This document shows positions 1 through 37,888 of a stretch of 64,000 nt of DNA, piece by piece. Made by a program: the position numbers and the translations under genes. Every line of letters begins with the position of its first letter. Positions within the stretch are counted from its first letter, which is position 1. The DNA comes from an uncultured Pelagibacteraceae bacterium (lineage in GTDB: Bacteria > Pseudomonadota > Alphaproteobacteria > Pelagibacterales > Pelagibacteraceae): NCBI GenBank assembly GCA_902592325.1, contig CACJEC010000001.1:62001-126000 (forward strand). The letters run 5' to 3'. The notes under the pieces are model-generated. The model saw only the letters and a program-made list of their open reading frames with translations, had not been told where the DNA came from and made no database searches.

Positions 1-1907
<1,907 letters not shown>

Positions 1908-6094: not shown

Positions 6095-7495
6095 TTAAGA
6101 GTGTATTGCTCTTTTATCTACTGATAATGCTGCTTCTTTAACTGCTTCAGAAAAAGTTGGGTGAGCATGGCAAGTTCTAGCGATATCTTCTGCGCTAGCA
6201 CCAAATTCCATTGCAATACCAATCTCTGCTATTAATTCTCCTGCATGAGGGCCAATTATATGAGCGCCTAGTACTTTATCAGTTTCTGCATCTGCTAAAA
6301 TTTTCACAAAGCCTTCTGTATCATCTATAGCCTTAGCTCTTGAATTAGCCATAAATGAAAATTTCCCAACTTTATATTTTTTGTTAAATTCTTTTAATTG
6401 TTCCTCAGTTTTACCAATAGATGCAACTTCTGGAGTTGTGTAAATTACTCCAGGAATTGTATCATAATTGACATGTCCTGATTGACCAACAATATTTTCT
6501 GCAACAGCTATACCTTCATCCTCAGCTTTATGCGCTAGCATAGGACCATCAATTACATCACCTATTGCATAAATATTTTTAACATTTGTTTCAAAATTTT
6601 TATCAGTTTTAATTCTATTTTTTTCATCTAAATTTACACCTACAGCTTCTAAGTTCAAACCATCTGTATTTGGTTTTCTACCAATAGAAATTAGAACTAC
6701 ATCACTTTCAAAGTTGTTTTTATTGCCATCTTTATCTACTGTCGAGACAACAGCTCCTGATAAATTTCTTTTGATTGTTTCAACTTTATTTTCCATAATA
6801 AATTTCATCCCCTGCTTTTTTAAAATTTTCATAAATTCAGATGAGATTTCTTTATCCATTCCAGGTGTAATATGATCTAAAAATTCAACTACTTGAACCT
6901 CTGAACCAAGTCTTGACCATACAGATCCCATTTCTAAACCAATGTAACCTCCACCTATGACAATCATTTTTTTTGGTACTTTTTCTAATTTCAAAGCTCC
7001 TGTTGATGAGACCAATATTTTTTCATCAATATCGACTCCAGGTAATGAGATTGGGACCGAACCTGTTGCAATAACTGCTTTTTCTGTATGAATTATAGTT
7101 TCCTTGTTTTTATCATCTTTAATTGAAATTTCATTTTGCGACCTAAAACTTCCATGACCTTTAAAATAAGTAACTTTGTTTTTTTTTAAGAGAAATTCAA
7201 CACCTTTTGTAAGAACAGTTACTGCTTTATTTTTACTTTTCATCATTTTTTCAAGGTTTAATTTTACTTCACCAATTTCAATACCTTTATTAGCTAAACC
7301 TTTAATTTTATGAAAATCCTCTGAAAGATTGAGTAAGCTTTTTGAAGGAATACATCCAACATTTAAACAAGTACCCCCTAAAGATCCTCTAGACTCTATG
7401 CAAGCTGTTTTAAGTCCTAATTGAGAAAGTCTGATAGCACAAACATAACCACCAGGTCCACCTCCTATTACTACTGCTTGAAATTTTTCTGACAT
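6095..7495 (-). CDS. lpdA: Dihydrolipoyl dehydrogenase (E3)
   Basis: FAD enzyme that re-oxidises the lipoyl groups of the 2-oxoglutarate dehydrogenase complex, passing electrons to NAD+. It has 466 residues, normal length. The N-terminal FAD motif is GGGPGGYVCAIR, the redox disulfide is CLNVGC near residues 44-49, a second dinucleotide motif GGGYIGLEMG follows near 180, and the catalytic His-Glu is in HAHPTFSEAVKEA near 444-449. It follows sucB directly (stop/start adjacent), so it is the E3 of this operon and may also serve other complexes. Confidence 0.98.
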   Translation of the reverse strand: MSEKFQAVVIGGGPGGYVCAIRLSQLGLKTACIESRGSLGGTCLNVGCIPSKSLLNLSEDFHKIKGLANKGIEIGEVKLNLEKMMKSKNKAVTVLTKGVEFLLKKNKVTYFKGHGSFRSQNEISIKDDKNKETIIHTEKAVIATGSVPISLPGVDIDEKILVSSTGALKLEKVPKKMIVIGGGYIGLEMGSVWSRLGSEVQVVEFLDHITPGMDKEISSEFMKILKKQGMKFIMENKVETIKRNLSGAVVSTVDKDGNKNNFESDVVLISIGRKPNTDGLNLEAVGVNLDEKNRIKTDKNFETNVKNIYAIGDVIDGPMLAHKAEDEGIAVAENIVGQSGHVNYDTIPGVIYTTPEVASIGKTEEQLKEFNKKYKVGKFSFMANSRAKAIDDTEGFVKILADAETDKVLGAHIIGPHAGELIAEIGIAMEFGASAEDIARTCHAHPTFSEAVKEAALSVDKRAIHS

Positions 7496-8824
7496 TTAAA
7501 TATTTAAAAACAACCTTCTTGGATCTTCTAAATTTTCTTTAATCATCTTTAAAAAAGATACTGAATCTTTTCCATCAATTATTCTATGATCATATGATAA
7601 AGCAAGATACATAATTGGTCTCACCTTTATTTGGCCATCTATTACAACTGGTCTTTCTATGATATTGTGCATACCTAAAACACCAGATTGAGGTAAATTT
7701 AAAATTGGCGTTGATAACATTGAACCATAAACACCACCATTGCTTATGGTAAATGTTCCACCTTGAAGGTCTTCAATAGTTAATTTTCCATCTCTAGCTT
7801 TTTCGGAAATTTCCTTAATATTTTTTTCTATTTCAGCAAATGATAGTTCATCTGCATTTTTTAAAACTGGAACAACTAAACCTTTTTCTGTCCCAACTGC
7901 AAAACTTATATTATAATAATTTTTATAAACTATATCTTCGCCTTCTATTTCAGCATTTACAGCTGGAAAAGATTTAAGAGCAACTATGCATGCCTTAACA
8001 AAAAAAGACATAAATCCTAACTTAATTCCATATCTACTTTGAAAGTCCTCCTGATTTTCTTTTCTCATTTCTATTACACCTGACATATCAACTTCATTGA
8101 AAGTAGTTAGTAAAGCAGCATTATCCTGTGCTTGCTTCAATCTCTTAGCTATAGTTTGTCTCAATCTGGTCATTTTAATTCGTTCCTCAAGTCCATATTT
8201 AGCTTTTCTTTCAGAAGGTTGTGGTTTTGAACCCATTAAATTCATCAGATCACTTTTTAAAATTCTCCCATCTTTTCCTGAACCTTGAACTGTTTGAATA
8301 TCTATTTTGTTTTCAGCAACTATTTTTCTGACTGCTGGTGATAAAGTTTGATTTTGAAAATTTTTTTCTAAATTTTTATCTTCTTTAATTTCATTATTCA
8401 AAACTAAAGGCTCTTCCTCTTTTGATTTATTTGTTAAAACTAAAGGCTCTTCCTCTTTATTTTCATCATCATAATCTTTATCAAAAATTTGAGGTTCTTT
8501 TTTTGAAACCTCTAAACTTACAATGTTGTCATTATTTAATTTTTTTTCATCTTTTTTAATCTCAATTTTTTTTATAATGGCTTCTCCATTTTCTGATACT
8601 GAGCCAAGTAAAGCACCAACCTCTACAGTAGCTCCATCTTTAGCGTCAATTTTTGATAAAATACCACTTACTGGTGATGGCACTTCTAAATTGACTTTAT
8701 CAGTTTCTAATTCAACAATAGGTTCGTCAGCTTCTACTGTATCACCTTCATTTTTTAACCACTTAGAGACTGTTGCCTCTGTTATGCTTTCTCCTAAAAC
8801 TGGTACTATAATTCTTTCACTCAT
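7496..8824 (-). CDS. sucB: 2-oxoglutarate dehydrogenase E2, dihydrolipoyl succinyltransferase
   Basis: Core enzyme transferring succinyl groups to CoA. About 442 residues: one lipoyl domain (lipoyl lysine in ETDKVNLE near 42), a charged flexible linker with an internal repeat (EEEPLVL twice), a peripheral-subunit-binding domain ([12 protein letters not shown], about 165-200) and the catalytic domain with [11 protein letters not shown] near 411-418 (His and Asp active site). I chose the ATG at 8824, giving [13 protein letters not shown] as in homologues; an ATG at 8836 would overlap sucA by eight bases. The second gene from the end of the TCA operon. Confidence 0.97.
8400..8459 (-). repeat. 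Direct repeat in the sucB linker (two copies, 36-base period)
   Basis: A 24-base unit at 8400-8423 recurs at 8436-8459 with at most one difference. It keeps the reading frame (12-codon period) and encodes [10 protein letters not shown] followed by [10 protein letters not shown] in the flexible linker between the lipoyl and subunit-binding domains. Probably a small in-frame duplication that lengthened the linker. Confidence 0.85.
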
Positions 8825-8828
8825 TTTT

Positions 8829-11702
8829 TTATTCAAACACTTTTTTAATAATTTCTTGTTGTTGAGAAATATGCCTTTTTACATAACCTGTTGCAGGTGA
8901 TGCATCTGGACTTCTTCCTATATAAGAAATTTGATTATTATTAGCCTTAATATTATCTAATGTCCATTGGATATAATCTCTAACGGAAAACCAAGCACCC
9001 ATATTTTTTGGTTCCTCTTGGCACCAATAAAAAGTTCCAGATTTAGCGTATGGTCTAAGTTCTTTAACAAGAGTTTTAGCAGGAAATGGGTAAAGTTGCT
9101 CTATTCTATAAAATATAACATCATTTCTCTTTAACTTTTCTCTAGCTTCAAGTAAATCAAAATATATTTTACCTGAACATAAAACTATTTTTTTAATTTC
9201 ATTCGCTTTTTTTAGTTTAATGAAACCTTTTATTTTTGGATCAATTGCATGATCCCATAAAACTCTATGAAATGAGTTTTTTTTGTTAAAATCTTCTAGA
9301 TTAGAAACACAATATTTATGCCTTAACAAAGATTTCGGTGTCATTATCACTAAAGGTTTTCTAAAATCTCTGTGCATTTGTCTTCTTAGTGCATGAAAGT
9401 AATTAGCAGGTGTAGTACAATTCATTACTTGCATGTTGTCATTTGAACATAATTGTAAAAATCTTTCTAATCTAGCAGATGAATGTTCTGGGCCTTGGCC
9501 TTCGTATCCATGTGGCAATAACATTACAAGTCCAGATGCCCTAGACCATTTTCTTTCACCAGAAGCTACAAATTGATCAATCACTACTTGAGCACCATTT
9601 GCGAAATCTCCAAATTGAGCCTCCCATATAGTTAGAGTATTTGGTTCCACTAAACTATAGCCATATTCAAATCCAAGAACAGCTAATTCAGATAAAAAAC
9701 TATCAACTACCTCGAAGTTTTTTTGTTTTTTCGAAATATTATTAAGAGGCACAAACCTTGAATTATCTAATTGATTTCTTAAAACAGAATGTCGCTGGCT
9801 AAATGTTCCTCTACCAGAGTCTTGTCCTACTAATCTTACTGGATAACCTTCTTCCAGTAGTGAACCAAAAGCCAAAGACTCTGCTGATGCCCAATCTATT
9901 CCTTTTCCACTTGAAATAGCTATTTTTCTATTATCTAAAATTTTAGATATTGTTTTGTGAATATTAATTTCTTTAGGAATTATATTAATCTTATCAGAAA
10001 TCTCTTGTAATTTTTTTATATCTGATCCAGTGACACCTCTTTTGTCTTTACCTCTCTCAGGTTTATATCTAGACCAAGTTCCCTCAAACCACTCAATTTT
10101 TGGATTATAATTTTTTGCATTTTTAAATTGCTCATCTAGTAAATCTTTAAATTCCTTTATAGACTCATCTAAATAATCATTAGAAATTGACCCCTCTTTT
10201 ATTAATTTTTTTCCATAAACCTTTACAGGTGATGGATGAGAGCGAATTTTTTGGTACATTAATGGCTGAGTGAATGAAGGTTCGTCCCCTTCATTGTGAC
10301 CAAATCTTCTATAACAAATTAAATCTATAACAACATCTCTATTAAATTTTAATCTAAAATCTGTTGCTATCCTAGCTGCATAAACTACTGCCTCTGGGTC
10401 ATCTCCATTGACATGTATAATTGGAGCTTCTACCATTTTGGCTATGTCAGAAGGGTATGGAGAAGATCTAGCAAATCTTGGACTTGTGGTAAAACCAATC
10501 TGATTATTAATTATTATATGTATTGTTCCTCCAGTATTATGACCGGGAAGTCCAGACATTGCAAAACACTCAGCAACAACTCCTTGTCCTGCAAAAGCGG
10601 CGTCTCCATGGATCAAAATGGGAATTACTTTTTTTCTCTCTTTATCTTTATGAAAAAATTGTTTAGCCCTTGTTTGTCCCAAGACAACTGGATTTACTGC
10701 CTCTAAATGAGATGGATTATCAGTTAAACTAACGTGAACTGAGTTTCCATCAAACTCTCTATTTGATGAGGCTCCTAAATGGTATTTCACATCACCAGTA
10801 TCATCTTCTGATTTTGAATTTATCTCTCCTGCAAATTCATTAAAAATTTTTTTATAAGATTTTTGCAGCACATTTGCCAAAACATTTAATCTACCCCTAT
10901 GTGACATACCAATTTTAACTTCTCTAACTTTTGAATGACCTCCTATCTTAATTATTTGTTCAAGAGCAGGAATTAAACTTTCTCCTCCATCAAGACCAAA
11001 TCTTTTTGTTCCAACATATTTAGTGTGTAAAAATTTTTCAAAACCCTCAGCTTGAATTAATTTATTAAGTATTGCTTCTTTTCCATTTTGGGTAAATTTA
11101 AAATCGTTAGTTTTTTCAACTCTGTCTCTAAACCACTTTCTTTCAGTTGGATTAGATATGTGCATGTATTCATAGCCTAATGAACCACAATATTTTTCTC
11201 TTAAAAAGTTTAGTATTTCTTTAATATTGGAATATTTTCTATTAGTAACTCCATCTAAAAAAATTTTTTTTTGATAATCATCTTTTTTAAATCCATAAGA
11301 TTCTGGATGTAGTTCATCTAAGTAATCAGATTTTAGTAATCCCAAAGGATCTAGTTTTGCAATTAGATGTCCTCTTTGTCTATAAGACCTTATCATTGCT
11401 ACAGCCTTAATCGAATTAGCATTAGACTTAATAATTTCTAGTTCATTTTGTTGGCTACTTTCATTACTTTTACTAATTTCATTATTTGATGAAAACTTTT
11501 GAGATGGTTTCCAAGAAGGTCCATTTATTTCATTAACAATAGTATCTTTTTCATCACCTATCTCATCAAAGTATTTTTTCCAACTTTTAGGTAAAGTTGG
11601 ATCGTTATTGACAAACTTCATATACATTTCTTCAATGAAAATACTATTTGATTTACTCAAAAAAGAAGTTTTTTCGTATTCAAGATTTTTTGAAGAAGAC
11701 AT
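8829..11702 (-). CDS. sucA: 2-oxoglutarate dehydrogenase E1
   Basis: Thiamine-diphosphate decarboxylase that commits 2-oxoglutarate to succinyl-CoA. It has 957 residues, family length. Seen: the N-terminal E2-binding segment with [14 protein letters not shown], the [17 protein letters not shown] region, the ThDP half-domain with [13 protein letters not shown] and [13 protein letters not shown], and the C-terminal transketolase-like half with [12 protein letters not shown] and [16 protein letters not shown]. It lies 31 bases after sucD and is followed by sucB with almost no gap. Identification is secure. Confidence 0.98.
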
Positions 11703-11733
11703 TTTTTTTAATATAAACTTACAAAGAAATTTT

Positions 11734-12609
11734 TCAATTAGACAATTTATTAAATAATGTTTTTCCTATTTTTGATGGTGAGTTTGCTATAGTAATTCCA
11801 CAATCTTCCATTTTTTTTATCTTATCTTCTGCACCACCTTTCCCCCCAGAAATAATCGCACCAGCATGACCCATTCTTCTTCCTGGGGGAGCAGTAATCC
11901 CTGCAATAAATCCAACTATTGGCTTCTTTATTTGATGATTTTTTATAAACTCAGCAGCTTCCTCTTCTGCTGTACCACCAATTTCGCCTATCATTAAAAT
12001 CGATTTGGTTTCCTTATCATTTAAAAATAAATCTAAGCAATCTATAAAATTTGTACCATTTATTGGATCTCCACCAATCCCTATACATGTAGATTGACCC
12101 AAGCCGTTTTCAGTTGTCTGTGCGACTGCTTCGTAAGTTAAAGTTCCAGATCTTGAAACAATGCCAACTGATCCTTTTTTATGAATATTCCCAGGCATAA
12201 TACCAATTTTACATTCATCTGGGGTAATTATACCTGGGCAATTAGGACCAATTAATCTACTTTTGGATTTTAATAATTTTTTTTTTACTATAAGCATATC
12301 TTGAATTGGTATTCCCTCTGTAATACAAACAATCAAATCTAAATCAGACTCAATAGCCTCAATGATTGCTTCTGCTGCAAATTTTGCTGGCACATAAATC
12401 ATAGTTGCATCTGCTCCAACTCTATCTTTAGCTTCTTTAACTGTATTAAAAACTGGTTTACCAAGATGTTCTTGACCTCCTTTTTTGGGGGTAACACCAC
12501 CAACTAAGTTGGTTCCATAATTAATAGCTTGTTCAGAATGAAAAGTGCCATGACTTCCTGTAAAACCCTGACAAATTACCTTCGTTTTTTTGTTTACCAA
12601 AATTGACAT
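11734..12609 (-). CDS. sucD: Succinyl-CoA synthetase subunit alpha
   Basis: CoA-binding subunit of the TCA enzyme that makes ATP or GTP from succinyl-CoA. It has 291 residues. The N-terminal Rossmann CoA site has [15 protein letters not shown], and the phosphorylated histidine is in [11 protein letters not shown] near residue 249. The start ATG overlaps the last base of sucC, so the two subunits are translationally coupled. Confidence 0.98.
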
Positions 12610-13769
12610 TATTTAATTGCCTCAACAATTTTTTTTGCTGCATCATCTAAATTTTCAGCAGAAATCAATTTTAATCCTGATTTATCTAAAATTTCTTTTC
12701 CCTGTTTAAAATTTGTACCAGCTAATCTTACTACTAGTGGAATATTTATATTTATTTCTTTAGCCGCGTCTACGACACCTTGAGCAAGCACATCGCATCG
12801 CATAATACCACCAAAAATATTAATTAATATTCCTTTTACATTTTTATCTGACAAAATTATTTTAAATGCTGCTGAAACTTTTTCTTTTGATGCTCCCCCA
12901 CCAACATCTAAAAAATTTGCAGGCTCCTCACCATATAATTTTATTATATCCATAGTAGCCATAGCTAAACCTGCACCATTAACCATACAACCAATGTTTC
13001 CATCTAATTTGATATATGCTAAATCATATTTACTTGCTTCAATTTCCTTGGGATCCTCCTCATTCAAATCTCTTAATTCTAAAATTTCTGGATGTCTAAA
13101 TAAAGCATTGCTATCAAAACTAACTTTTGCATCTAAGCAGACAATTTTTTTTTCTTTTGTTAATATTAATGGATTTATCTCAACCATATTAGCATCTGTC
13201 TTAATAAACATTTTATAAATTGATTTTATTAATGAAATTGCATCATTTTTAGAACTTCCTTCTAAATCAAATATTTTTATAATCTTTTCACACTCTTCAC
13301 TTGAAATTTCTTCATTAAATTCAACTTTAGTCGTTAAAATTTTATCTGGAAATTTAATTGCTACCTCTTCAATATCCATCCCTCCTTGATCACTTGATAT
13401 AAAAGCAATTTTAGAAGTAGTTCTATCTACCAAACATGATAAATAAAATTCTTTATCAATATTTGATGACTCTTCTACATAAAGCCTTTTTACTTCTCTT
13501 CCTTCTGAACCTGTTTGGTGTGTTATAAGTGTTTTTCCTAAAAGTTCTGTTGCAGCAACTTTCAATTCCTCTAAGTTATTTAGAATTTTTACTCCTCCTG
13601 CTTTACCTCTTCCACCGGCATGAATCTGTGCTTTAAGAACAAATTTTTTAGTATTAAGAGATTTGGCCTTTTCAACTAAATCTTCTACATTTAGCGCAAA
13701 AACCCCTTTCGGAACTAATGCGCCATATCTTTTTAAAATTTGTTTAGCTTGGTGTTCGTGAATGTTCAT
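12609..13769 (-). CDS. sucC: Succinyl-CoA synthetase subunit beta (ATP-grasp)
   Basis: Nucleotide-binding partner of SucD, 386 residues. It opens with [16 protein letters not shown], has the ATP-grasp lysine/arginine region [16 protein letters not shown] near 45-60, and metal-binding VEINPLILT near 197. The glycine loop GGIMRCDV is near 320. Start and stop overlap mdh and sucD by one base each, as in the canonical alphaproteobacterial mdh-sucCDAB operon. Confidence 0.98.
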
Positions 13770-14734
13770 TACTTAGAAAGATCTGAATCTATCTTAGATG
13801 CAGCTTTCCAAAGATTTTTAACCGCATCAATAGAGTGCATGAATTCTTTTTTTTCTTTCTCATCTAAATCTACTTGTTCTATTTTTTCAACTCCCTTTTT
13901 TCCAATTATGACTGGTACTCCTGCATAAACATTATTTACTCCATATTCTCCATTTAATTGAACCGCACATGGTAATAATTTTTTTTCATCATTTAAATAT
14001 GCTTCTGCCATTTGAACTCCTGAAGCAGCTGGAGCATAAAATGCAGAACCTTTTTCTAAATACTTAACAATCTCAGCTCCTCCATCTCTAGTTCTTTGAT
14101 TAATTTCTTCAAGCCTCTCTTGTGAGATTTTTCCATCTTTGACTAAATCCAATAATGGTTTTCCAGAAACTTTGGTAAATCTAGGCATTGGAACCATTGT
14201 ATCTCCATGTCCTCCCATAACCATTGCTTCTATATCTTTAACAGGAATATTTAACTCTAAGGATAAAAATAATTTAAATCTTGAACTATCTAAAATTCCT
14301 GCCATTCCAACTACTTTGTTAGCAGATAAGCCAGAAAATTTTTGAAAAGCCATGACCATTACATCTAAAGGGTTAGTTATACAAATTACAAAAGCGTTTG
14401 GAGCATTTTGTTTAACACCTTCGGCTACTTGTTTAATTATTTTCAAATTAATACCTAAAAGATCATCTCTACTCATACCAGGCTTTCTAGGCACGCCAGC
14501 TGTAATAATTATTACATCGGAGTCTTTAATATCCTTGTAGTCATCGGTGCCTGAAAATTTTACATTAAAACCATCGACTGATGAAGATTGAGCAATATCT
14601 AATGCTTTTCCTTTTGCAATTCCGCTTGCTACATCAAATAAAACTACCTCATTTACTAATTCTTTTGTTCCAATTAAATGTGCGAGAGTTCCGCCTATTT
14701 GACCTGCTCCAATTAAAGAAATTTTTTTTTTCAT
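13769..14734 (-). CDS. mdh: Malate dehydrogenase (LDH-like type)
   Basis: NAD-dependent malate/oxaloacetate enzyme, 321 residues, of the lactate-dehydrogenase-like tetrameric class found in alphaproteobacteria. NAD motif [12 protein letters not shown] at 8-19; substrate loop [16 protein letters not shown], where the arginine marks malate rather than lactate; catalytic His in [11 protein letters not shown] near 175. First gene of the TCA operon; the ATG at 14734 has a short palindrome (AGATTAATCT, 14740-14749) immediately upstream. Confidence 0.97.
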
Positions 14735-21247: not shown

Positions 21248-22009
21248 ATGAAAGATACAAATAGCAGAACCTCTCCAAGAAGAATATTAAATATTCTAGA
21301 AGAGATAATAATTGATCCAGATAATTTTACTGCAAAAAAGATTTCTCATAAATTAAAGATACCCCTGCCTACAATTTATCGACATATTGAAACTTTATGT
21401 GAAGAAAAGTACTTGGTTTCTAGTAATTCAAAGAGTTATCTTCCTGGACCAAAAATAAGAAACATTATTTTAAAAAGTTTACCTTACGAACCAAACTTTA
21501 CTTTAAGAAGATCTTACTTAAGAAAATTGACTAATGATATTGAAGAAACAGTTAGTTTATCAATTCCTATCGGAACTAAACTTGTTTATTTTGATAGAAT
21601 AGAATTTCATTGGCCAATGCAATTAAATTTAGAAGCAGGAGACCATCTTCCCTTACACGCCTCAGCATCTGGAAAATTATATCTTTCATCCATAAATGAG
21701 GAAAAGGTTATTCAAATTTTTAGAAATATTAAAACACCCAAAAATGCAAAAAATACAATTACAGATATTTCACAGTTTAAAAAAGAAATAAAAAAAATTA
21801 AAAATCAAGGGTATGCTTTTGATGATGAAGAATGGTTTAATGGAATGGTTGGACTTTCTGTACCTATATTTAATTCAGATAAGGAATTGTGTTTTTGTTT
21901 ATCCACTCACACAGCCAAAAGTAGAAAAGATATAAGTGATTTAAAAAAAATTCTACCAATTATGCTTAATTCAGCAAATAATCTTAAAAAAGTTTTATTC
22001 AAAGATTAG
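21248..22009 (+). CDS. IclR-family transcriptional regulator
   Basis: Probable regulator of the adjacent catabolic genes, 253 residues. The N-terminal winged helix-turn-helix spans about residues 12-70 ([20 protein letters not shown], then LCEEKYL). The C-terminal effector domain shows the IclR landmarks [14 protein letters not shown] near 137 and [21 protein letters not shown] near 195-215. It is likely co-transcribed with mmsA. Its 3' end overlaps the convergent sdhB by 11 bases. Confidence 0.92.
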
Positions 22010-22778
22010 CTGTTGCTAACATCTTTTTAATTTCAGCAATTGCTTTTGCAGGATTCAAGCCCTTGGGACATGCACTAGTACAATTTAAAATAGTATGACA
22101 TCTATAAAGTTTTAGCTCATCGGCCACTTTTTTTAATCTGGCCTCTCTTTCTTCATCTCTACTATCTATAATCCATCTATAAGCTTGTAGTAAAACTGCT
22201 GGTCCTAAATATTTATCGCCATTCCACCAATAACTTGGGCAAGATGTTGAACAACATGCACACATAATGCACTCATATGCTCCATCTAATTTTGCTCTTT
22301 CTTCTTTAGATTGAATTATTTCAGTATTTTCTGAATCTGAATTTGATTTTAACCAAGGTTCTATTGATTGATATTGTTTATACAAACCATCTAGGTCTCC
22401 TATCAAATCCTTTTTAACTTTCAGATGTGGAAGTGGGTAAATATCAATATCACCATCAATTTCTGCATGCGGGGTGGTACAAGCTAAACCATTTTTTCCA
22501 TCCATATTCATTGCGCAAGAGCCACAAACTCCATGTGCACAAGATCTTCTATACGAAATTGTTGGATCAATTTCGTTTTTTATTTTGTTTAAAACATCTA
22601 GGACTTTAGAAGGACAATTGTCCATATCAACTTCATAAGTGTCAATCCTAGGATTTTCTCCTGATGAAGGGTCCCATCTATAAATATTTACTTTTCTTAA
22701 ATTTTTAGAGCCAGTTCTATCTTTAAAATATTTACCTTTTTTGACTTTAGAATTTTCAGGTAAATTAATTTGAACCAT
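21999..22778 (-). CDS. sdhB: Succinate dehydrogenase iron-sulfur subunit
   Basis: Carries electrons from FAD to quinone through three iron-sulfur centres, 259 residues. The [2Fe-2S] site is [21 protein letters not shown] near 66-83, and the two C-terminal clusters are [16 protein letters not shown] near 173 and [17 protein letters not shown] near 230. Trp after CPSY and His in CHTILNC, both part of the quinone site in E. coli, are kept. Last gene of the sdhCDAB set; its ATG follows sdhA by a one-base overlap. Confidence 0.98.
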
Positions 22779-24553
22779 TAATAAACTCTTTCTTGAGGTG
22801 GAAAATATTGCACTTCATTAGTAAGTGTAGTTTTGTGAACGTCTCTATAACTTATTTTTGTTTCTTTTCCATCACACCAAGCAAGGGTATGTTGCATAAA
22901 TTTTTTATCATCTCTTTTAGGATAATCTTCTCTAGCATGTGCTCCTCTACTTTCTTTTCTATTATAAGCTGAGTCCACTGTTACCACTGCTTGTCGAATT
23001 AAGTTGTCAAACTCTAAAGTTTCTACTAAATCAGTATTGAAAATTAATGATTTATCTTTGACCGATAAAGAATCTAAACCATCATAAGTTTTTCTTATTT
23101 CTTCAACCCCTTCTTTTAAAGTTTTTTCAGTTCTAAATACTGCACATTTAGATTGCATAGTTTTCTGCATTGCTAATCTTAGTTCAGCTGTTCCGATATT
23201 TCCATCTGCATTTCTAATTTTATCAAATCTATCGATACATTTTTGCGTTTCGGAATCGCTTATTTTCTCATGGGGTGATCCAGGTTTAATTAATTCTGCT
23301 GCTCTTTTTGCTGCAGCTCTTCCAAAAACAACTAGATCTATTAATGAGTTGGATCCTAACCTATTTGCTCCATGAACTGAAACACATGCTGCCTCACCAA
23401 TCGCCATCAATCCAGGAACAGTTTTTTCAGAACCATTCACTGTTAAAACTTCCCCATTATAATTTGTGGGTATACCTCCCATATTATAATGAACAGTTGG
23501 CACAACCGGAATTGGTTCTTTAGTAACATCAACATTTGCAAATAATCTTGCAGCATCAGTTATTCCTGGCAATCTACTTTCAATAATTTCTTTATCTAAA
23601 TGACTCAAATTTAAATGAACATGATCATGATCTTTTCCAACACCTCTTCCCTCATTAATTTCAATAGACATTGATCTACTCACAACATCTCGAGATGCTA
23701 AGTCTTTTGCTTTAGGGGCATATCTTTCCATAAATCTCTCGCCTTTAGAATTTGTAAGATATCCTCCTTCACCTCTCGCACCTTCCGTTATCAAAGTCCC
23801 ATGACCATATATTCCTGTCGGGTGGAACTGAACAAACTCCATGTCTTGCAATGGCAATCCAGCTCTCAAAATCATAGCATTACCATCTCCAGTACAAGTA
23901 TGAGCCGAAGTTGCTGAATAATAAACTTTACCATAACCACCTGTTGCGATAATTACAGAATGAGCCCTAAATCTATGAATTGTTCCATCATTCAAATTCC
24001 ACGCTATTAAACCCTTACACTCACCATTTTTCATTAATAAATCCAATGCAAAATATTCTATAAAAAATTCTGTTTTGTGTTTTAAAGCTTGTCCGTATAA
24101 AGTATGCAAAATTGCATGACCTGTCCTATCTGCTGCTGCACAAGTTCTTTGAACAATTCCATTTCCATAATTCTTAGTCATGCCACCAAATGGCCTTTGA
24201 TAAATTTTCCCATCTTCAGTTCTACTAAAAGGAACACCATATTTTTCTAATTCAATCACTGCTTTAGGTGCCTCTTTGCATAAATATTCAATGCTATCTT
24301 GATCTCCCAACCAATCAGCTCCTTTTACAGTATCATACATGTGCCATCGCCAATCATCTTCACCCATATTTCCAAGTGCTGCCGAGATACCTCCTTGAGC
24401 TGCTGAAGTATGGCTTCTGGTTGGAAATACCTTTGATATACAAGCTGTTTTTAATCCAGCCTCACTTAAACCTACTGCAGCTCTTAAGCCTGAACCTCCA
24501 GCTCCTAAGACAACAACATCATACTCATGATTAATTATTTTATATGAACTCAT
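22778..24553 (-). CDS. sdhA: Succinate dehydrogenase flavoprotein subunit
   Basis: Covalent-FAD subunit oxidising succinate to fumarate, 591 residues. FAD motif [16 protein letters not shown] near 15-30; the FAD-linked histidine lies in [12 protein letters not shown] near 47; substrate-site residues are in [13 protein letters not shown] near 355 and [19 protein letters not shown] near 398. The C-terminus has [12 protein letters not shown]. It overlaps sdhD by four bases. Normal length and no missing residues noted. Confidence 0.99.
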
Positions 24554-24873
24554 AATCTAGTAATTAATATAATTGTAATTAATGGAATTACCACTGCAGA
24601 AGCATACAAAACCTTGTTTGCGACATTTTTGATTTTATCATTTTTAATATAATCCTCAAAAACCTCAGTAATACTCAAGGCTGAAAAAAAATATGCAGTA
24701 ATTATAAATAAACTAAATAGAAACTTAGACAATGGGTTTGAAAAAAAATTTGCAACAATAAAATAACCTTGATCATAAATTTTTATGAAATTTAAAATAA
24801 ACCATACCATCAATGGAACTAATAGCGCTCCACTAATTTTGAGAAAAATCCATTTTTTAGTTGCATTTATCAT
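24550..24873 (-). CDS. sdhD: Succinate dehydrogenase membrane anchor SdhD, no histidines
   Basis: Small anchor subunit with three hydrophobic helices, 107 residues. The position and the motif ending EVFEDYI (the Asp-Tyr of the quinone site) identify it. The axial heme ligand of E. coli SdhD is a histidine 11 residues before that Asp; here the position is Phe (in [16 protein letters not shown]), and the whole protein has no histidine. Codons checked in the DNA at about 24650-24710. The subunit therefore cannot ligate heme b in the usual way. One base separates it from sdhC. Confidence 0.9.
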
Positions 24874-24874
24874 C

Positions 24875-25258
24875 TTAAAAAAAATTTTTTCCTATTAAAT
24901 AAAAAATTACTGTCAAAAAAATTGACCCAAATATAACCATTAAACCAGTAATTTTTGTTGTTTTAAGTTCAAATCCATAACCTAAATCCATGATCAAATG
25001 TCTTATCTCACTCAAAACTTGAAAAGAAAAAGACCATGTTAATCCTAAAATAGTAAATTTACCTATTGATGAAGTTAAAAATAAATTGATCATTTCATAA
25101 TTATTTTCACCAAAGACTATTAGTGAAGCCAAAAAACATATAAACGTAATTCCAATAATATTTATTACCCCTGTTATTCTATGCGAAATAGAGACTAATG
25201 ATGAAATATGCCATTTATAGATTTGAATATGTGGAGATAATGGTGCTTTATTTTCCAT
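24875..25258 (-). CDS. sdhC: Succinate dehydrogenase cytochrome b556-type subunit SdhC, heme ligand replaced
   Basis: Anchor subunit with three membrane helices, 127 residues. N-terminal PLSPHIQIYKWHISSLVSISHRITGV is the family signature and keeps the Ser and Arg of the quinone site. In E. coli the heme ligand is the histidine six residues before the Arg of GIRHMMMD; here the segment is FQVLSEIRHLIMD, so that position is Gln. Together with SdhD this predicts a complex II lacking heme b. The ATG lies inside the end of asd (11-base overlap). Confidence 0.93.
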   Translation of the reverse strand: MENKAPLSPHIQIYKWHISSLVSISHRITGVINIIGITFICFLASLIVFGENNYEMINLFLTSSIGKFTILGLTWSFSFQVLSEIRHLIMDLGYGFELKTTKITGLMVIFGSIFLTVIFYLIGKNFF

Positions 25259-26255
25259 AAAAATTATTCTTAATTAATGTTTCAGCAATTTCTACAGAAT
25301 TCAAAGCTGCACCTCTCAACAGATTATCTGAAACAATCCATAAATTTAATCCATTTTTTATTGTTTTATCTTCTCGGATTCTCGATATAAATGTTTCGTC
25401 GTTACCTTCTGCCTCTACTGGAGTTGAGTATCCACCATCAATTCTCTCATCGATTACTGTACAACCCTCAAAATTATTTAATACTTCTCTGACTTTTTCA
25501 ATGGAAAAAGGTTTTTCAAATTGTAAATTTACTGATTCTGAATGTGAAACAGAAATTGGTAATCTTACACATGTTGCTGTTAAATCAATTTTATCATCTA
25601 AAATTTTTTTTGTTTCATTGGTCATTTTTAATTCTTCTTTTGTGTAACCATCGTTTGAAAATACATCAATATGAGGAATAGCATTGAATGCTATTTGTTT
25701 TGTAAAATTTTTTGATTTTACTTTTTTACCTTCCAAAACTAACTTAGTTTGTTCAATTAATTCATCCATAGGCGCTTTACCACCACCTGATACCGATTGG
25801 TATGTGGAAACGACTATTCTTTTAATTATGAATAAATCATGCAAGGGTTTTAAAGCAATTACCAATTGTGCTGTTGAGCAATTTGGATTAGCAATAATAT
25901 TTTTATTCATATTATTTAAGTGATTTGAATTTACTTGTGGAACTATTAAAGGCACATCTGGATCCATTCTATAATAACTTGAATTATCAATTACAAAACA
26001 ATCATTTGCAGCTTTTTTGGCAAATTTTTCTGAGATTTTTCCTCCTGCTGCAAAAAAAGCAATTTTTACTTTAGCAAAATCGAAGTTTTCTAAATCAAGA
26101 ACTTCATAATCTTTGCCTTTAAAATTAATTTTCTTACCAACACTTTTTGATGAAGCAACTAAATAAAGATTATCGATAGATAGTTCCTTTCTTTCGAGAA
26201 CTTCTAAAGTTTTTCTTCCAACATTTCCTGTTGCTCCAACTATCGCAATATTCAT
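25248..26255 (-). CDS. asd: Aspartate-semialdehyde dehydrogenase
   Basis: NADPH enzyme reducing aspartyl phosphate on the path to lysine, threonine, methionine and diaminopimelate. It has 335 residues. NADP motif IVGATGNVGRKTLEVL at 4-19; catalytic cysteine in NPNCSTAQLV near 129; SYQSVSGGGKAPMDEL near 158; catalytic histidine in RLPISVSHSESVN near 240. In many alphaproteobacteria asd directly follows leuB; here the dmd genes lie between. Confidence 0.97.
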   Translation of the reverse strand: MNIAIVGATGNVGRKTLEVLERKELSIDNLYLVASSKSVGKKINFKGKDYEVLDLENFDFAKVKIAFFAAGGKISEKFAKKAANDCFVIDNSSYYRMDPDVPLIVPQVNSNHLNNMNKNIIANPNCSTAQLVIALKPLHDLFIIKRIVVSTYQSVSGGGKAPMDELIEQTKLVLEGKKVKSKNFTKQIAFNAIPHIDVFSNDGYTKEELKMTNETKKILDDKIDLTATCVRLPISVSHSESVNLQFEKPFSIEKVREVLNNFEGCTVIDERIDGGYSTPVEAEGNDETFISRIREDKTIKNGLNLWIVSDNLLRGAALNSVEIAETLIKNNFYGK

Positions 26256-26270
26256 GATGTAAGTTTTATA

Positions 26271-27380
26271 CTAGATGAAAGGTAAATCGCAAACTTTTAG
26301 AGTAAAAGTTTTTCCCTCAATTTCAAGCTTGCCAGTCTCTGATGCTTTGCAAAAAGGCTTATTTATCATTGCAATTCCTATAACCTTTTTGAAATGAGGT
26401 GAATAACATGCAGACCTTAGATCTCCTATTAATTTTCCATCTCTATTCATAATATTGACTGAACCTGTTAAACTAATTTCATTTGCTTCAATTTGAACTC
26501 CCATTAGTTTTCTTTTAATTCCATCAGATTTGATCTTTTTTAACTTTTCTTTACCTAAAAAAACTATGTCTGAATCCAAATTTACATATTTTTCAAAACC
26601 ACATTCAAAGGGATTGTCTTGATTGTCAAAATCATTTCCGTAAGAAAGAAGACCACTTTCAATTCTTTCAATAAGATTTGGACAGCCAGGTTTAACATTA
26701 AATTCCACACCTATTTCAAAAAAAAAATCATATAAATCTTGGCCTGATGATGTATTTTCAACATAAACTTCAAAACCACCTTGTTTTGACCAACCTGATC
26801 TTGCAATTAAATGTTTTGTACCTTTGAAATCAAAATAGTCAAAACCAAAAAATTTTAACTCAGTGATTTTTTTTCCAAAAACCTTTTCCATAAGACCAAA
26901 TGATTTAGGACCTTGTATTGCAATGATATCAACGTTTGGTTCAAAAATTTTTACTTTAAAATTATTTCCAGAAGCAAGCCCTTTAGCAAAAAAGATAACA
27001 TCTGAATCTGCAATCGAAATCCACCATTTATCTTCAGCTAATTTTAATATTACTGGATCGTTAACTAAATTACCATTATCATCAATTATCGGACAATAAT
27101 AACATCTTCCAACTTTTGATTTTGACAAATCTCGACAAGTCATAAGCTGAACAAGTTTTGCTGAATCTGTTCCAGAAATTTCAACTTGTCTCTCTGCTGC
27201 AACATCCCAAATTTGAACATTTCTTTTTAAATGATCGCAAGACTCTTCTATTGATCCAAAAGCAGCTGGTAATAACATGTGATTATAAACGGTATAAGCT
27301 GTTACACCTTGTTTTTCTATTCTTGATGTATAAGGTGTGCTTCTTAATCTTCTAGATTTTGCTATAGAATAATTTTTCAT
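26271..27380 (-). CDS. dmdA: Dimethylsulfoniopropionate (DMSP) demethylase
   Basis: Cytoplasmic enzyme of the GcvT/aminomethyltransferase fold that moves a methyl group from DMSP to tetrahydrofolate, yielding 3-methylmercaptopropionate (MMPA). Its 369 residues match the Pelagibacter enzyme in length, and the sequence agrees closely with what I recall of it: [20 protein letters not shown] at the start, [42 protein letters not shown] and the C-terminus KVCDLPFI. DmdB- and DmdC-like genes upstream support the call. It overlaps the upstream hydrolase gene by four bases. Confidence 0.95.
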
Positions 27381-28153
27381 TTATTTAAAAATTCCAAAAT
27401 CTTTTCTCGCATTTCAAAAGCTTTTTCAATCATAATCATGTGTCCTGATCCATTAATTATATAGGTAGTTGAATCTTTGACTAAATTTGCAAATTTTTTT
27501 CCACTTTCTAAATTAGCCATCTTGTCAAGTTCTCCTAATATAAACAAAGTTGGACAATTTATAGCTTTTGCTGCATCAGAACCGTTTTGATAATTATTAC
27601 ATGCAATAAGATCAACAGCTAAAATTTCACTAATATCTCTTGGCGATTGAATAATTTTTTCCACTGGATTTCCACCAATAAATTTTTTTGACCCTTCGTA
27701 ACCCCATTTCATCATTAATTTAACAGCATCAGTATCTCCATCTGATGCTAAATTAATAAGATCTTTATGAACAGGCATTCGATAAGAACCCCCAACAAAA
27801 ACTATCTTTTTTAATCTATTTTTGTATTTAAATGAATATTCTAAAGCTTCTAAACAACCTTGTGAATGACCAACAAGAATTATATTTTTTAAGTTTAATT
27901 CTACAAAAACTTTTTCTAACCAATCTGCAATTTTTTCAATACTATCTAAACACGGACCTTCAGAATTTCCATGTCCAGGTAAATCAATTGATAAAACATT
28001 ATAATTTTTATTTGAAAAAAATTTTTCTGTAAGAGACCAAACAATATGTGATAAGCCACTTCCATGCAAAAATACTATGGTATCTTTAGAGTTTTGTATG
28101 CCCTGCCCAGAATCAGATGCATGAACACTTTTGTTTTGTATAGTTATTTTCAA
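27377..28153 (-). CDS. Alpha/beta hydrolase inside the dmd operon
   Basis: Single-domain alpha/beta hydrolase, 258 residues. HGSG oxyanion motif near 30, nucleophile serine in GHSQGCLEA near 97, acid in LGELDKMA near 210, and catalytic histidine in GSGHMIMIE near 238. The frame opens with TTG at 28153. It lies eight bases after the dmdB-like gene and overlaps dmdA by four, so it is translated with the DMSP genes. No specific substrate can be read from the sequence; a thioesterase or hydratase-like role on a pathway intermediate is only inferred from position. Confidence 0.9.
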
Positions 28154-28161
28154 TCAATTAC

Positions 28162-29778
28162 CTAAAATTTTTTTCTAAGCTCAAATTTCTGGATTTTACC
28201 TGTAGAAGTTTTTGGTAATTCACAGAATACAACCTGCTTAGGAACCTTAAAACCAGCTAAAGTTTCTTTGCAAAAGCTTATTAATTCTTTCTCTGTAGTA
28301 GGTTTGTCTTTAACCATTTCAATAAAAGCACAAGGAACTTCTCCCCACTTTTCATCAGGTTTAGCTACTACAGCAGCAATTGATACTGAAGGGTGTTTAC
28401 TTAAAGTGTTTTCTATTTCGATTGATGAAATATTTTCTCCACCAGAAATAATTATATCTTTTGATCTATCTTGTATTTTAACATATCCATCTGGATGCAT
28501 TACTGCTAGGTCTCCTGAATGAAACCATCCACCAGCCATAGCCTTGTCAGTTGCAGCCTTATCTTTAAAATAGCCTTTCATTACCACGTTTCCTCTCAGC
28601 ATAATTTCACCAATTGTTTTGCCATCTTTTGGAACTTCTTTCATGGTTTCAGGATCCATAATTGCTGCTCTTTCAAGGTTAGGATATCGAACTCCTTGTC
28701 TTGCTTTAATTTCATTTTGTTTTTCTTCATTAAATTCATTCCAATCATCATTCCAAGCACACTGTGTGACATGACCATAGGTTTCTGTTAAACCATAAAC
28801 ATGCATCACCTCAAAACCAAGTTCTTTCATTTTTTTGAAAATTATACTTGGAGGTGGAGCACCTGCAGTAAGCACATGAACTTTATTTTTTAATTTTTTT
28901 CGGTCACTTTCAGGAGCACCTGTTATCATATTTAATACAATCGGAGCTCCACCAAAATGAGTAATGTCATACTTATCTATCAACTCAAAAATCTTTTTGA
29001 CATCTATGTTTCGTAAACAAATAGTTCTTCCATTCAACATTGGAACTGTCCATGGGTAACACCAACCATTACAGTGAAACATTGGAACAACTGTTAAAAA
29101 ATTTAATCTATTAGGCATATTCCAAGCAACAGCACTTCCAGTTGACATTAAATAAGAGCCTCTATGATGATAAACGACACCTTTAGGATTTCCAGTTGTA
29201 CCTGAAGTATAACTTAAAGATATAGCCTGCCACTCATCTTCTGGTATTTTCCAAATATAATTATCCTCACCTGTATTAAGAAAGTTTTCATATTCTAAAT
29301 CACCAATTTTTTCTAATTTTGATTGATCGGCAAATTTATCGTGAATATCAATAATCGTTATTTTTTTTTCTAATTTGCTCAAAGCTTTTTTCACTTCTAC
29401 ATGAAGCTGTCTATCAACTACCAATACTTTTGCATCGCTATGATTCAGAATGTAAGAAATAGTATTTGCATCTAATCTAATATTAATTGTATTTAATACA
29501 GCACCTGTCATTGGGACGGAATAATGAGCCTCAAAAATTTCAGGAGTGTTAAAAGCTAAAAATGAAACGGTATCTCCTTTTTTAATACCAATTTTTTCTA
29601 ACGCACTAGCAAATTTAGTGGCTCTTTTATAGACTTCATTCCAAGTATATTTTCTATCCTCATAAACTATTGCCTCATAATTTGGGTAAACGTCTTTCGC
29701 TCTTTCTAAGAAAGATAAAGGTGTTAAAGGAATATAATTTGCTGCATTTTTATCTAAATTTATATCGTAATGACTCAT
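28162..29778 (-). CDS. dmdB: Acyl-CoA synthetase, probable MMPA-CoA ligase
   Basis: AMP-forming ligase, 538 residues, the length of known DmdB proteins. ATP-binding loop SLSYTSGTTGNPKGVVYHHR near 183-202, HVYGLTETYGHVT near 330, GWFHSGDLAVMHPDGY near 420, and the catalytic lysine in KTSTGKIQKFELR near 530. In the DMSP demethylation pathway DmdB activates MMPA to MMPA-CoA. The assignment rests on family plus position, one base after the DmdC-like gene and upstream of dmdA; other medium-chain acids are possible substrates. Confidence 0.85.
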   Translation of the reverse strand: MSHYDINLDKNAANYIPLTPLSFLERAKDVYPNYEAIVYEDRKYTWNEVYKRATKFASALEKIGIKKGDTVSFLAFNTPEIFEAHYSVPMTGAVLNTINIRLDANTISYILNHSDAKVLVVDRQLHVEVKKALSKLEKKITIIDIHDKFADQSKLEKIGDLEYENFLNTGEDNYIWKIPEDEWQAISLSYTSGTTGNPKGVVYHHRGSYLMSTGSAVAWNMPNRLNFLTVVPMFHCNGWCYPWTVPMLNGRTICLRNIDVKKIFELIDKYDITHFGGAPIVLNMITGAPESDRKKLKNKVHVLTAGAPPPSIIFKKMKELGFEVMHVYGLTETYGHVTQCAWNDDWNEFNEEKQNEIKARQGVRYPNLERAAIMDPETMKEVPKDGKTIGEIMLRGNVVMKGYFKDKAATDKAMAGGWFHSGDLAVMHPDGYVKIQDRSKDIIISGGENISSIEIENTLSKHPSVSIAAVVAKPDEKWGEVPCAFIEMVKDKPTTEKELISFCKETLAGFKVPKQVVFCELPKTSTGKIQKFELRKKF

Positions 29779-29779
29779 C

Positions 29780-31543
29780 TTAATTAAATTTAAAATTCAT
29801 TATGTTTGAGCTTCCAGAAATAGCAGATTTGTAATGTTGCTCAGCTCTCGGTAGAACTTTATCAAAATAAAATTTTGCAGTATTTATTTTATCGTCATAA
29901 AAATTTTTGTTTTCATTATAATCTTTAAAACTTACATCTAGGACCTTAATCCAAGCATAAGCTACAGAAACAAAACCAAGAGTTTTCAGATAGTCATTTG
30001 CAGCTGCACTAACATCGTCTTTATCAGTTTTTGTTTTTTCATTTATCCATTTACTAAACTTGGTCAAAATATCCAAATAATACTTAAATTCCTGTGTAAA
30101 TGGCTTAATCTTTTCGTTATCTAAATCAGTTTCGGATTTTATTAAATCTATAAATTTATTAATTATATCTCCATTTTTATTAGATAATTTTCTAAAAACT
30201 AAATCTGCAGCTTGTACAGAATTTGTACCTTCATATATTGGGGTTATTCTATTATCTCTATACAACTGTTCAATTCCTTGATCTTTTGTATAACCATAAC
30301 CTCCGTGAATTTGCATTGCATCATTTGTAATTTCCATACCTAAATCAGTAAACAATGATTTTACCACTGGAGTCATTAATGAAACAAAGTCTGATGCTTC
30401 CTGACGTACTTTTTCATCTTGGTGATATAAACTAACTTCAGTTTGTTGTGATAACCAAAAACATAAAGCTCTCTCACCCTCAATAATTGATTTCATGTTT
30501 AATAAAGATCTTCTTATGTCAGCATGTTCAATTATAAAATCAGCTCCATTAGTTGATTTAGTTTTATTTGTCTTTCCTTGTTTTCTTTCTTTTGCATAAG
30601 CAAGAGAATTTTGATAAGCGATTTCTGAAATTCCTAAACCTTGGATGCCTACGACAATTCTCTCAAGATTCATCATAGTAAACATTGCACTTAAACCTTT
30701 GTCTTTTTTTCCAATCATATAACCGGTGGCACCATCAAAATTAAGTACACATGTTGCGGAACCTTTTATGCCCATTTTGCTTTCAATAGATCCTGTTGAT
30801 ATTCCATTTCTTGGACCAACACTTCCATCATCATTAACTACAAATTTGGGAACTAAAAATAAACTAATGCCTTTTGTGCCTGCTGGAGAGTCAGTTGCTC
30901 TAGCAATTACTAAATGAATAATATTTTCAGTTAAGTCATGATCCCCAGAAGTTATAAAGATTTTCTGACCACTAATTTTATATGTTCCATCATTTTGTTT
31001 TTCGGCTTTTGTTTTTAAAAGTCCTAAATCTGTTCCACAAACAGGTTCTGTTAAACACATCGTCCCACTCCACTTGCCTTCAACTATTTTTGGTAAATAT
31101 TTATTCTTTATTTCATCAGATGCATGATGATTAATACAATTATATGCACCAATACTAAGTTCACTATAAAGTTTAAATGATAAACTAGCGGCTGACAACA
31201 TTTCATCAAAAAATGCACTTACAGTTTTAGGCATGCCTTGACCACCATATTTTGGATCACAAGACAATGATGTCCAACCATCTTCAATGTATTTCTGATA
31301 TGCTTCTTTGTATCCAGGAGGAGTTCTTACAACTCCATTTTCTAAAACTGCTGGATTTTCATCTCCAGCTTTTGCAAGTGGAAGTATTAAATTCTGATTT
31401 ATTTTTGCTGCTTCCTCTAAAATATCTTTAACAAGATCTGAACTAACTTCTTTATATTTTTCTAATTCATTATAGTTTTTATTGTCTCTTAATTTTTCAA
31501 AAAGAAACATCATGTCTTCAACAGGTGCAGTATAAGTTGGCAT
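29780..31543 (-). CDS. dmdC: Acyl-CoA dehydrogenase, probable MMPA-CoA dehydrogenase
   Basis: FAD enzyme of the long (about 590 residue) acyl-CoA dehydrogenase subgroup to which DmdC belongs; 587 residues. N-terminal extension to about residue 75, then MCLTEPVCGTDLGLLKTKAE near 162, FITSGDHDLT near 198, and the active-site region IYEGTNSVQAADLVFRKL near 437 with the catalytic Glu. It would oxidise MMPA-CoA to methylthioacryloyl-CoA. Family and operon agree; the exact substrate is inferred. It lies 26 bases after leuB. Confidence 0.85.
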   Translation of the reverse strand: MPTYTAPVEDMMFLFEKLRDNKNYNELEKYKEVSSDLVKDILEEAAKINQNLILPLAKAGDENPAVLENGVVRTPPGYKEAYQKYIEDGWTSLSCDPKYGGQGMPKTVSAFFDEMLSAASLSFKLYSELSIGAYNCINHHASDEIKNKYLPKIVEGKWSGTMCLTEPVCGTDLGLLKTKAEKQNDGTYKISGQKIFITSGDHDLTENIIHLVIARATDSPAGTKGISLFLVPKFVVNDDGSVGPRNGISTGSIESKMGIKGSATCVLNFDGATGYMIGKKDKGLSAMFTMMNLERIVVGIQGLGISEIAYQNSLAYAKERKQGKTNKTKSTNGADFIIEHADIRRSLLNMKSIIEGERALCFWLSQQTEVSLYHQDEKVRQEASDFVSLMTPVVKSLFTDLGMEITNDAMQIHGGYGYTKDQGIEQLYRDNRITPIYEGTNSVQAADLVFRKLSNKNGDIINKFIDLIKSETDLDNEKIKPFTQEFKYYLDILTKFSKWINEKTKTDKDDVSAAANDYLKTLGFVSVAYAWIKVLDVSFKDYNENKNFYDDKINTAKFYFDKVLPRAEQHYKSAISGSSNIMNFKFN

Positions 31544-37787: not shown

Positions 37788-37811
37788 ATTTATTACACAC
37801 AGCAGTAATCG

Positions 37812-37888
37812 CACTAGTGGGCGAACCCTCGCTGACTAGTGTCGATCTCTTTGTTTCCAAAGACACCGCAAATTTAACGCTTTTGCGG
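37812..37888 (-). ncRNA. Structured RNA element in the ffh leader (three hairpins)
   Basis: Three consecutive stem-loops lie between ffh and dapF. 37812-37841: CACTAGT/ACTAGTG outer stem with an inner GCGA/TCGC stem. 37848-37863: TCTTTG/CAAAGA stem whose loop is GAAA (a GNRA tetraloop) on the minus strand, flanked by GTGTC/GACAC that could extend it. 37866-37888: CCGCAAA/TTTGCGG stem. The GNRA loop favours minus-strand RNA, that is the ffh 5' leader. The block is visibly GC-richer than its surroundings. It lacks the conserved GGAAG-type SRP RNA apex, so it is not ffs. Confidence 0.7.

Follow-up and report, generated by a model that had tools for sequence, protein, structure and literature searches.

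Can a succinate dehydrogenase that has given up both histidine ligands of heme b remain a working complex II, and would it then be free of heme? This question is raised by the sdh genes of the window, i.e., the whole 64,000-nucleotide stretch of DNA from an uncultured Pelagibacteraceae bacterium that was analyzed here. Type C complex II is defined by two anchor subunits that each donate one axial histidine to heme b, according to the available text of PMC13066397. A first-pass annotation of the window had claimed that both histidines are replaced and that the enzyme is a natural heme-free version of type C. The genes concerned are the following.

24875..25258, minus strand: sdhC, cytochrome b556-type anchor subunit, 127 amino acids, heme-ligand histidine replaced (open reading frame)
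24550..24873, minus strand: sdhD, membrane anchor subunit, 107 amino acids, without histidine (open reading frame)
22778..24553, minus strand: sdhA, flavoprotein subunit (TIGR01816, 965 bits, cut-off 727)
21999..22778, minus strand: sdhB, iron-sulfur subunit (NF004616, 355 bits, cut-off 228)

The order is sdhC-sdhD-sdhA-sdhB, all on the minus strand, with neighbors that overlap or are separated by a single base, and all four products scored above the NCBIfam family cut-offs. SdhC reached 117.2 bits against TIGR02970 (cut-off 52.3; E 4.8e-34) and also matched PF01127 (E 1.1e-26), while SdhD reached 49.5 bits against TIGR02968 (cut-off 41.8; E 3.9e-13). The residues on which the argument turns were read from their codons.

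25178..25192, minus strand: SdhC Ser23, His26 and Arg27 (E. coli Ser27, His30, Arg31), quinone site and pocket, kept
25019..25021, minus strand: SdhC Gln80 (CAA), heme-ligand position (codon; chicken SDHC alignment)
25007..25009, minus strand: SdhC Glu84 (GAG), four residues after the ligand position, Gly in heme-type anchors
24998..25000, minus strand: SdhC His87 (E. coli His91, a distal-propionate contact), kept
24838..24840, minus strand: SdhD Lys12 (AAA), position of E. coli Arg20 (codon; profile alignment)
24685..24687, minus strand: SdhD Phe63 (TTT), position of E. coli His71 (codon; profile alignment; superposition)
24664..24666, minus strand: SdhD Glu70 (GAG), position of E. coli Gln78, a proximal-propionate contact
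24649..24654, minus strand: SdhD Asp74-Tyr75 (E. coli Asp82-Tyr83), quinone site, kept

Gln80 lies six residues before Arg86, at what we take to be the position of E. coli His84 (E. coli numbering), and the motif histidine of chicken SDHC fell on it in a HMMER alignment. Phe63 lies eleven residues before Asp74-Tyr75, and the SdhD profile alignment placed His71 of E. coli SdhD (1nek_D) opposite to it. In the superposition of the SdhD model on 2wdq_D, 105 residues were matched (3..107 on 11..115); since both ranges are 105 residues long, a constant offset of 8 can be assumed, which puts residue 63 on residue 71. A PDB search with the single SdhD sequence gave no match, whereas the profile search did. 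The replacements claimed for the two ligand positions were thus confirmed by codon and alignment alike, as was the complete lack of histidine in the SdhD of the window (locus L001); of the paired axial histidines that mark type C, neither anchor retains its own.

To place these replacements among relatives, as the first-pass annotation had proposed, PF01127 was searched in four overlapping sets of genomes: 61 from relatives, 197 from the family, 147 from the order and 241 from the class, with a match in 49, 162, 128 and 198, respectively. The ligands were read from part of the matches: at most 30 loci per genome set, with some repeats, five further sets of 20 regions, and 80 named loci, the latter being those retained of 357 SdhC-related stretches from genomes with names, each of the 80 titled Pelagibacteraceae, Pelagibacterales or Pelagibacter. 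The counts cover 273 loci after removal of 14 repeats, the 40 longer loci used again for trees, a placeholder and a locus whose SdhC could not be read; genus g10 stands outside all of them. In the genus of the window (g1), all 51 loci have Gln in SdhC, accompanied in SdhD by Phe (40), Tyr (9) or, in two genomes that keep this ligand beside the Gln, His (2). The 80 named loci, 16 of which share their SdhC motif and SdhD tail with a g1 locus, uniformly have Gln in SdhC and, apart from one unreadable SdhD, Phe (79). Together these two groups make 131 loci, or 114 unique pairs, with Gln in 131/131 and Phe or Tyr in 128 of the 130 readable SdhD sequences. Neither chance nor a sequencing error accounts for the ligand loss in the window, as the same Gln recurs in 80/80 separately named SAR11 loci and the same Phe in 79/79 readable ones.

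Other genera showed a graded picture. Written as SdhC/SdhD, the 25 loci of g7 are His/Phe (24) and Gln/Phe (1); the 16 of g5 are Gln/Phe (11), His/Phe (3), His/unread (1) and His/His (1); the single g17 locus is Gln/Asn; and g6, g8, g9, g11, g12 and g15 are His/His in 32/32. In the sister family f2, g3 (5 loci) is His/His in four and His/unread in one, and the reverse half-loss is seen in g2 (10 loci, Tyr/His), g4 (3, Tyr/His) and g18 (1, Asn/His), where SdhC has Tyr or Asn and SdhD keeps its His (e.g., L015, L271, L270). Outside the order, 50 loci were taken from 195 matching genomes, a non-random choice of the 30 best-scoring and 20 hand-picked lower ones. Here, SdhC has His in 49/49 (L230 gave no SdhC), and SdhD has His in 44 of 45 readable sequences, with one Tyr (L265) and four unreadable; these reads, like those of the family, omit the weakest-scoring SdhC, so that exceptions may be missed. 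The alignment bears out that ligand loss is general in the window's genus and its nearest named relatives, and that the histidines are nearly invariant in the alphaproteobacteria read outside the order. The L265 locus (genome G442, 1.4 Mb, of another alphaproteobacterial family) keeps the SdhC His and the Gly four residues on, and has Tyr in SdhD as in yeast Sdh4; possibly, it is a further natural heme loss outside SAR11.

Two additional changes, absent from the first-pass annotation, are stronger evidence for the heme-free reading than the ligands themselves: Gly to Glu at SdhC 84 and Arg to Lys at SdhD 12. Among the unique sequences of g1 and the named loci, Glu84 occurs in 114/114 and Lys12 in 112/113, whereas the His/His members of the family have Gly and Arg at these positions in 32/32 each, and 48/49 other alphaproteobacteria also have the Gly. 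The unique sequences of g5 and g7, leaving aside genome G180, carry Glu84 in 40/40 and Lys12 in 39/39. Across the 221 readable Pelagibacterales loci, the Gly is present in all 37 that have both histidines and is gone in all 184 that have lost a ligand (141 with no His, 43 with one), the replacement in f2 being Cys, Ser or Asp. Lys at the Arg20 position is also found in genus g3 of f2, which is heme-type (row L324 of the alignment), and in 4/45 other alphaproteobacteria, and one class member (L262) has Asp four residues after the ligand and yet both histidines. When the 114 unique pairs were compared with the 32 His/His members, the sharp changes at conserved sites included SdhC 80 and 84 and SdhD 12, 15 and 63; away from the pocket, SdhC Leu to Val at 22, Trp to Met at 90 and Trp to Tyr at 120 had also changed. 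At SdhD 15, Ala is replaced by Gly or Ser in g1 and the named loci; the corresponding E. coli Ala23 packs on the heme ring near His71 (PMC3290573, accessible text). According to the same text, the distal propionate in E. coli is bound by SdhD Arg20, SdhC His91 and SdhB His207, and SdhC Arg31 is the pseudo-twofold mate of SdhD Arg20. SdhD Glu70 was dropped as a mark of heme loss; it is order-wide, being found in 221/221 readable Pelagibacterales including the heme-type members, and occurs in 2/45 other alphaproteobacteria.

Could heme b still be held in this pocket by other means, namely SdhC His26 or His87, a new SdhD Met22, or mainly packing, as in single-ligand variants of the E. coli enzyme? 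His87 is invariant in the 46-sequence alignment A1 and His26 is present in 111/114 unique sequences; Met22 occurs in 111/113 unique sequences of g1 and the named loci and in 35/39 of g5 and g7, the position being occupied in the 32 His/His family members by Leu, Tyr, Ile or Phe, not Met. The two histidines, however, are otherwise employed, as E. coli His30 shields the ring and His91 binds a propionate (PMC3290573, available portion), and they are kept equally in the His/His relatives. Met22 would correspond, by the offset of 8, to E. coli residue 30, at least two helix turns away from residues 19-23 near His71. Moreover, the SdhD of the window offers no histidine, and a Glu fills the position that is Gly in heme-type anchors. 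Retention of the heme in the window's enzyme is, therefore, quite improbable. It is a different matter for lineages with one histidine: in work by Maklashina from 2001, single-ligand variants of the E. coli enzyme reportedly keep their heme, and the one-His lineages (g7, f2) may accordingly still bind it.

The mapping of the loss on a tree, also proposed by the first-pass annotation, was carried out on an SdhA+B tree of 46 rows and an SdhC+D tree of 48 rows, the latter with the pocket columns (SdhC 80 and 84; SdhD 12, 63, 65 and 67) removed. On both trees f2 stands apart from f1, and each family has His/His members; the losses in the two families were thus taken as independent, and we conclude that heme was lost at least twice in Pelagibacterales. 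The SdhCD tree needs two losses of the Gly, two changes of the SdhD His and five of the SdhC His, and the SdhAB tree five, four and five, respectively; Glu84 in f1 has one origin on the former and more on the latter. This difference stems mainly from the placement of G180 (L144/L297), an f1 genome of g5 with His/His and Gly, which lies inside g5 by SdhAB and outside the loss group by SdhCD. In AU tests of groups that were named after the trees had been seen, SdhCD rejected G180 within g5 (p 0.027), and SdhAB rejected a g1+g5+g7 clade without G180 (p 0.016) but not with it (p 0.28). Possibly, the anchor genes of G180 recombined and heme-type anchors were regained, although long-branch error could also explain the conflict. 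The association of the Gly with the ligands agreed in every independent pair on both trees; with four pairs by SdhAB (sign test p 0.125) and two by SdhCD (p 0.5), these were too few for significance.

As to the sequence of events, a scenario in which the SdhD ligand was lost first was dropped, as SdhC has Gln in 51/51 g1 loci while two of these genomes keep the SdhD His. No readable carrier of Glu84 has both histidines, which suggests that heme was abandoned when or before the Glu appeared, the histidines then drifting in either order. In the mechanism that we propose, the common ancestor that g1 shares with its close relatives would have exchanged the SdhC Gly for Glu and the SdhD Arg for Lys. 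Both ligands would then have been free to drift, with SdhC Gln probably arising first in g1 and SdhD Phe first in g5 and g7. Side chains would take over the structural tie that heme provides between SdhC and SdhD, and by the pseudo-twofold symmetry of the anchors, Glu84 of SdhC and Lys12 of SdhD might pair as a salt bridge where the distal propionate would otherwise lie; judged by the positions of the two residues, the chance of such a bridge is close to even, if slightly short of it. Electrons leaving FAD would travel along the three Fe-S clusters and reach ubiquinone directly, at the SdhB/C/D site, which is intact.

A precedent exists in Saccharomyces cerevisiae, where wild-type complex II was reported in 2026 to show no heme in either cryo-EM or spectra; the Sdh4 subunit has Tyr108 at the ligand position, and Glu112, a former Gly four residues on, bonds Sdh3 Arg97 in replacement of a propionate (PMC13066397, available text). 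Both enzymes share the type C fold, the quinone site, an altered ligand position and the Gly-to-Glu change four residues after it, so that type C anchors with a lost ligand and this Gly-to-Glu change, as expected of the heme-free subdivision of type C that the yeast paper asks for, are found here, although in SAR11 the Glu sits in the opposite subunit (Glu84, SdhC). Yeast keeps the Sdh3 His and has both Tyr and Glu in Sdh4, whereas SAR11 has lost both histidines and has Glu in SdhC and Lys in SdhD. Furthermore, the yeast enzyme is mitochondrial and its lack of heme was measured, while that of the bacterial enzyme is predicted.

The heme could also be absent and its cavity filled by lipid or bulky side chains, not bridged by Glu84 and Lys12. 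Phe63 of SdhD does add bulk, the Tetrahymena complex II has cardiolipin at the place of heme (PMC10227065, accessible part), and yeast has added Phe residues together with a buried lipid (PMC13066397, likewise). Such filling, however, leaves unexplained why a charged Glu appears together with the Arg-to-Lys change in the f1 loss lineages, and we regard it as possible but rather doubtful. Overall, the sdhCDAB genes very probably encode a working succinate:ubiquinone oxidoreductase of the type C lineage with an anchor that no longer binds heme b, and the absence of heme, taken by itself, is likewise highly probable. The coordinated pocket changes, the single-ligand intermediates among relatives and the heme-free yeast structure all support this. 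The heme-free type C enzyme of the first-pass annotation is thus well supported as a prediction from sequence.

Is such an enzyme functional? The first-pass annotation had listed SdhC Ser and Arg, SdhD Asp-Tyr, and SdhB Trp and His as kept in the quinone site, and the codons and alignments A1 and A2 agreed: Ser23 and Arg27 occur in 114/114 unique sequences, Asp74-Tyr75 is invariant in A2, and SdhB has Pro181, Trp184/Trp185, His228 and Ile230 in the motifs that form the site, residues that we equate with those of E. coli by motif. Single-chain AlphaFold2 models were also obtained. That of SdhC (pLDDT 87.7) had E. coli SdhC as its best PDB match (2wu2_C; Z 15.3, rmsd 5.6, 121 aligned), and that of SdhD (pLDDT 94.6) had E. 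coli SdhD (2wdq_D; Z 13.8, rmsd 1.7, 105 aligned), ahead of the fumarate reductase subunit FrdD (1kf6_D; Z 9.5, rmsd 3.3, 104 aligned). As single chains, the anchors are therefore predicted to fold as in the E. coli enzyme. The best NCBIfam and Pfam matches were also SdhC and SdhD, a Fumarate_red_D match of SdhC remaining below threshold (19.2 bits, cut-off 25). Type C is thus represented here by anchors of the SdhC and SdhD families (TIGR02970, TIGR02968 and the models) and by the quinone-site residues. In E. coli, a heme-free variant loses about half of its activity and retains growth on succinate, and heme stabilizes the isolated enzyme (PMC3290573, available portion). Given the kept quinone site, the predicted fold and the activity of this variant, the presumably heme-less complex II encoded here is almost certainly competent in catalysis. 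A SAR11 proteome paper that was searched for Sdh made no mention of it (PMC5069961). It is hardly conceivable that the anchor is decayed or misassembled and unable to reduce quinone, or that it is an artefact of assembly: nothing beyond the two missing ligand residues speaks for this, while the operon is intact, the quinone site and fold are conserved, and the named loci agree in 80/80.

Why the heme was lost is a separate matter. The first-pass annotation had offered a saving of iron in iron-poor sea water, and the named loss-lineage loci indeed belong to SAR11, which is largely marine; the g8 genome G065, a single contig of 1,160,202 bases that may come from a freshwater bacterium, keeps both histidines, which would fit this motive. 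With 2Fe-2S, 4Fe-4S and 3Fe-4S clusters plus heme, complex II contains about 10 Fe, of which only about one would be saved per enzyme. Other heme systems have been kept: ferrochelatase and cytochrome b are present in the genome of the window, the window itself has a CcmC gene and a CcmF-like gene (494 bits, below the family cut-off of 569), and COX1 was found in 5/5 relatives tested, though not in the window's own assembly, which is 75% complete. Both histidines are also kept in 8/9 of the other alphaproteobacteria read that have genomes of 1.1-1.5 Mb. The motive is thus not supported and appears unlikely, and iron saving as an established cause was rejected as unproven.

Comparison with better-known enzymes places the SAR11 form more precisely. 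It resembles E. coli SdhCDAB in gene order, fold and quinone-site residues, and differs in that E. coli has His84 and His71, Gly four residues after the ligand, and Arg20, its heme-free form being an engineered one (PMC3290573, in the accessible text). Like the Tetrahymena thermophila complex II, which is called type D and lacks heme b (PMC10227065, accessible part), it would combine two core anchors with no heme b, although the Tetrahymena anchors are highly divergent and hold cardiolipin in the pocket, whereas those of SAR11 are ordinary SdhC and SdhD by sequence. E. coli FrdABCD, also type D, likewise has two anchors and lacks heme (PMC3290573, same portion), but its anchors are distant, the SAR11 SdhD superposing better on SdhD than on FrdD. 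Natural heme-free complex II is on record in yeast and some protists, going by the available parts of PMC13066397 and PMC10227065. No earlier report of a naturally heme-free bacterial or SAR11 type C enzyme was found in the literature searched, which mostly did not extend to subscription papers. The SAR11 enzyme is a new bacterial variant, apparently reached independently and with a mirrored compensating charge, its heme-free state being predicted from these residues. The fuller picture, in which the citric acid cycle of certain bacteria that rank among the most abundant in the sea depends on a heme-free type C enzyme arising from at least two losses, with a Glu-Lys mimic of the propionate that mirrors yeast and a re-acquisition by recombination in G180, is put forward tentatively, as all of its parts would have to hold.

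The purpose of the heme in complex II is still debated (PMC3290573 and PMC13066397, as far as their available text goes). Closely related SAR11 bacteria form a series in which nature supplies enzymes with two ligands, with one and with none, and the role of heme thus becomes testable in evolved enzymes instead of damaged mutants. This series includes strain HTCC9565 (locus L088; Gln/Phe), which is presumably a cultured strain. If the heme-free reading is true, a very common complex II of the ocean works without heme, and the annotation name 'cytochrome b556 subunit' is misleading for the SdhC of SAR11. Convergence with yeast would also yield a rule, namely that Gly to Glu four residues after the ligand predicts heme-free complex II elsewhere.

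Several features of the surrounding DNA were also recorded. The sdhC gene shares 11 bases with the end of a gene for aspartate-semialdehyde dehydrogenase. Citric-acid-cycle genes lie close to sdhCDAB on the minus strand (window 6095-14734 and 21999-26255); among them, 2-oxoglutarate dehydrogenase E1 was confirmed, while sucB, lpd, sucCD and mdh were assigned by eye. Just upstream of the asd-sdh genes, dmdA (DMSP demethylase) adjoins acyl-CoA synthetase and acyl-CoA dehydrogenase-like genes (window 26271-31543, minus strand), possibly a cluster of the dmdABC type. ARAGORN found no tRNA in the window. The only Rfam match at gathering scores was the ffh sRNA (54.4 bits, gathering 35; window 37803-37856, minus strand), located at the start of a gene that was judged by eye to be ffh-like.
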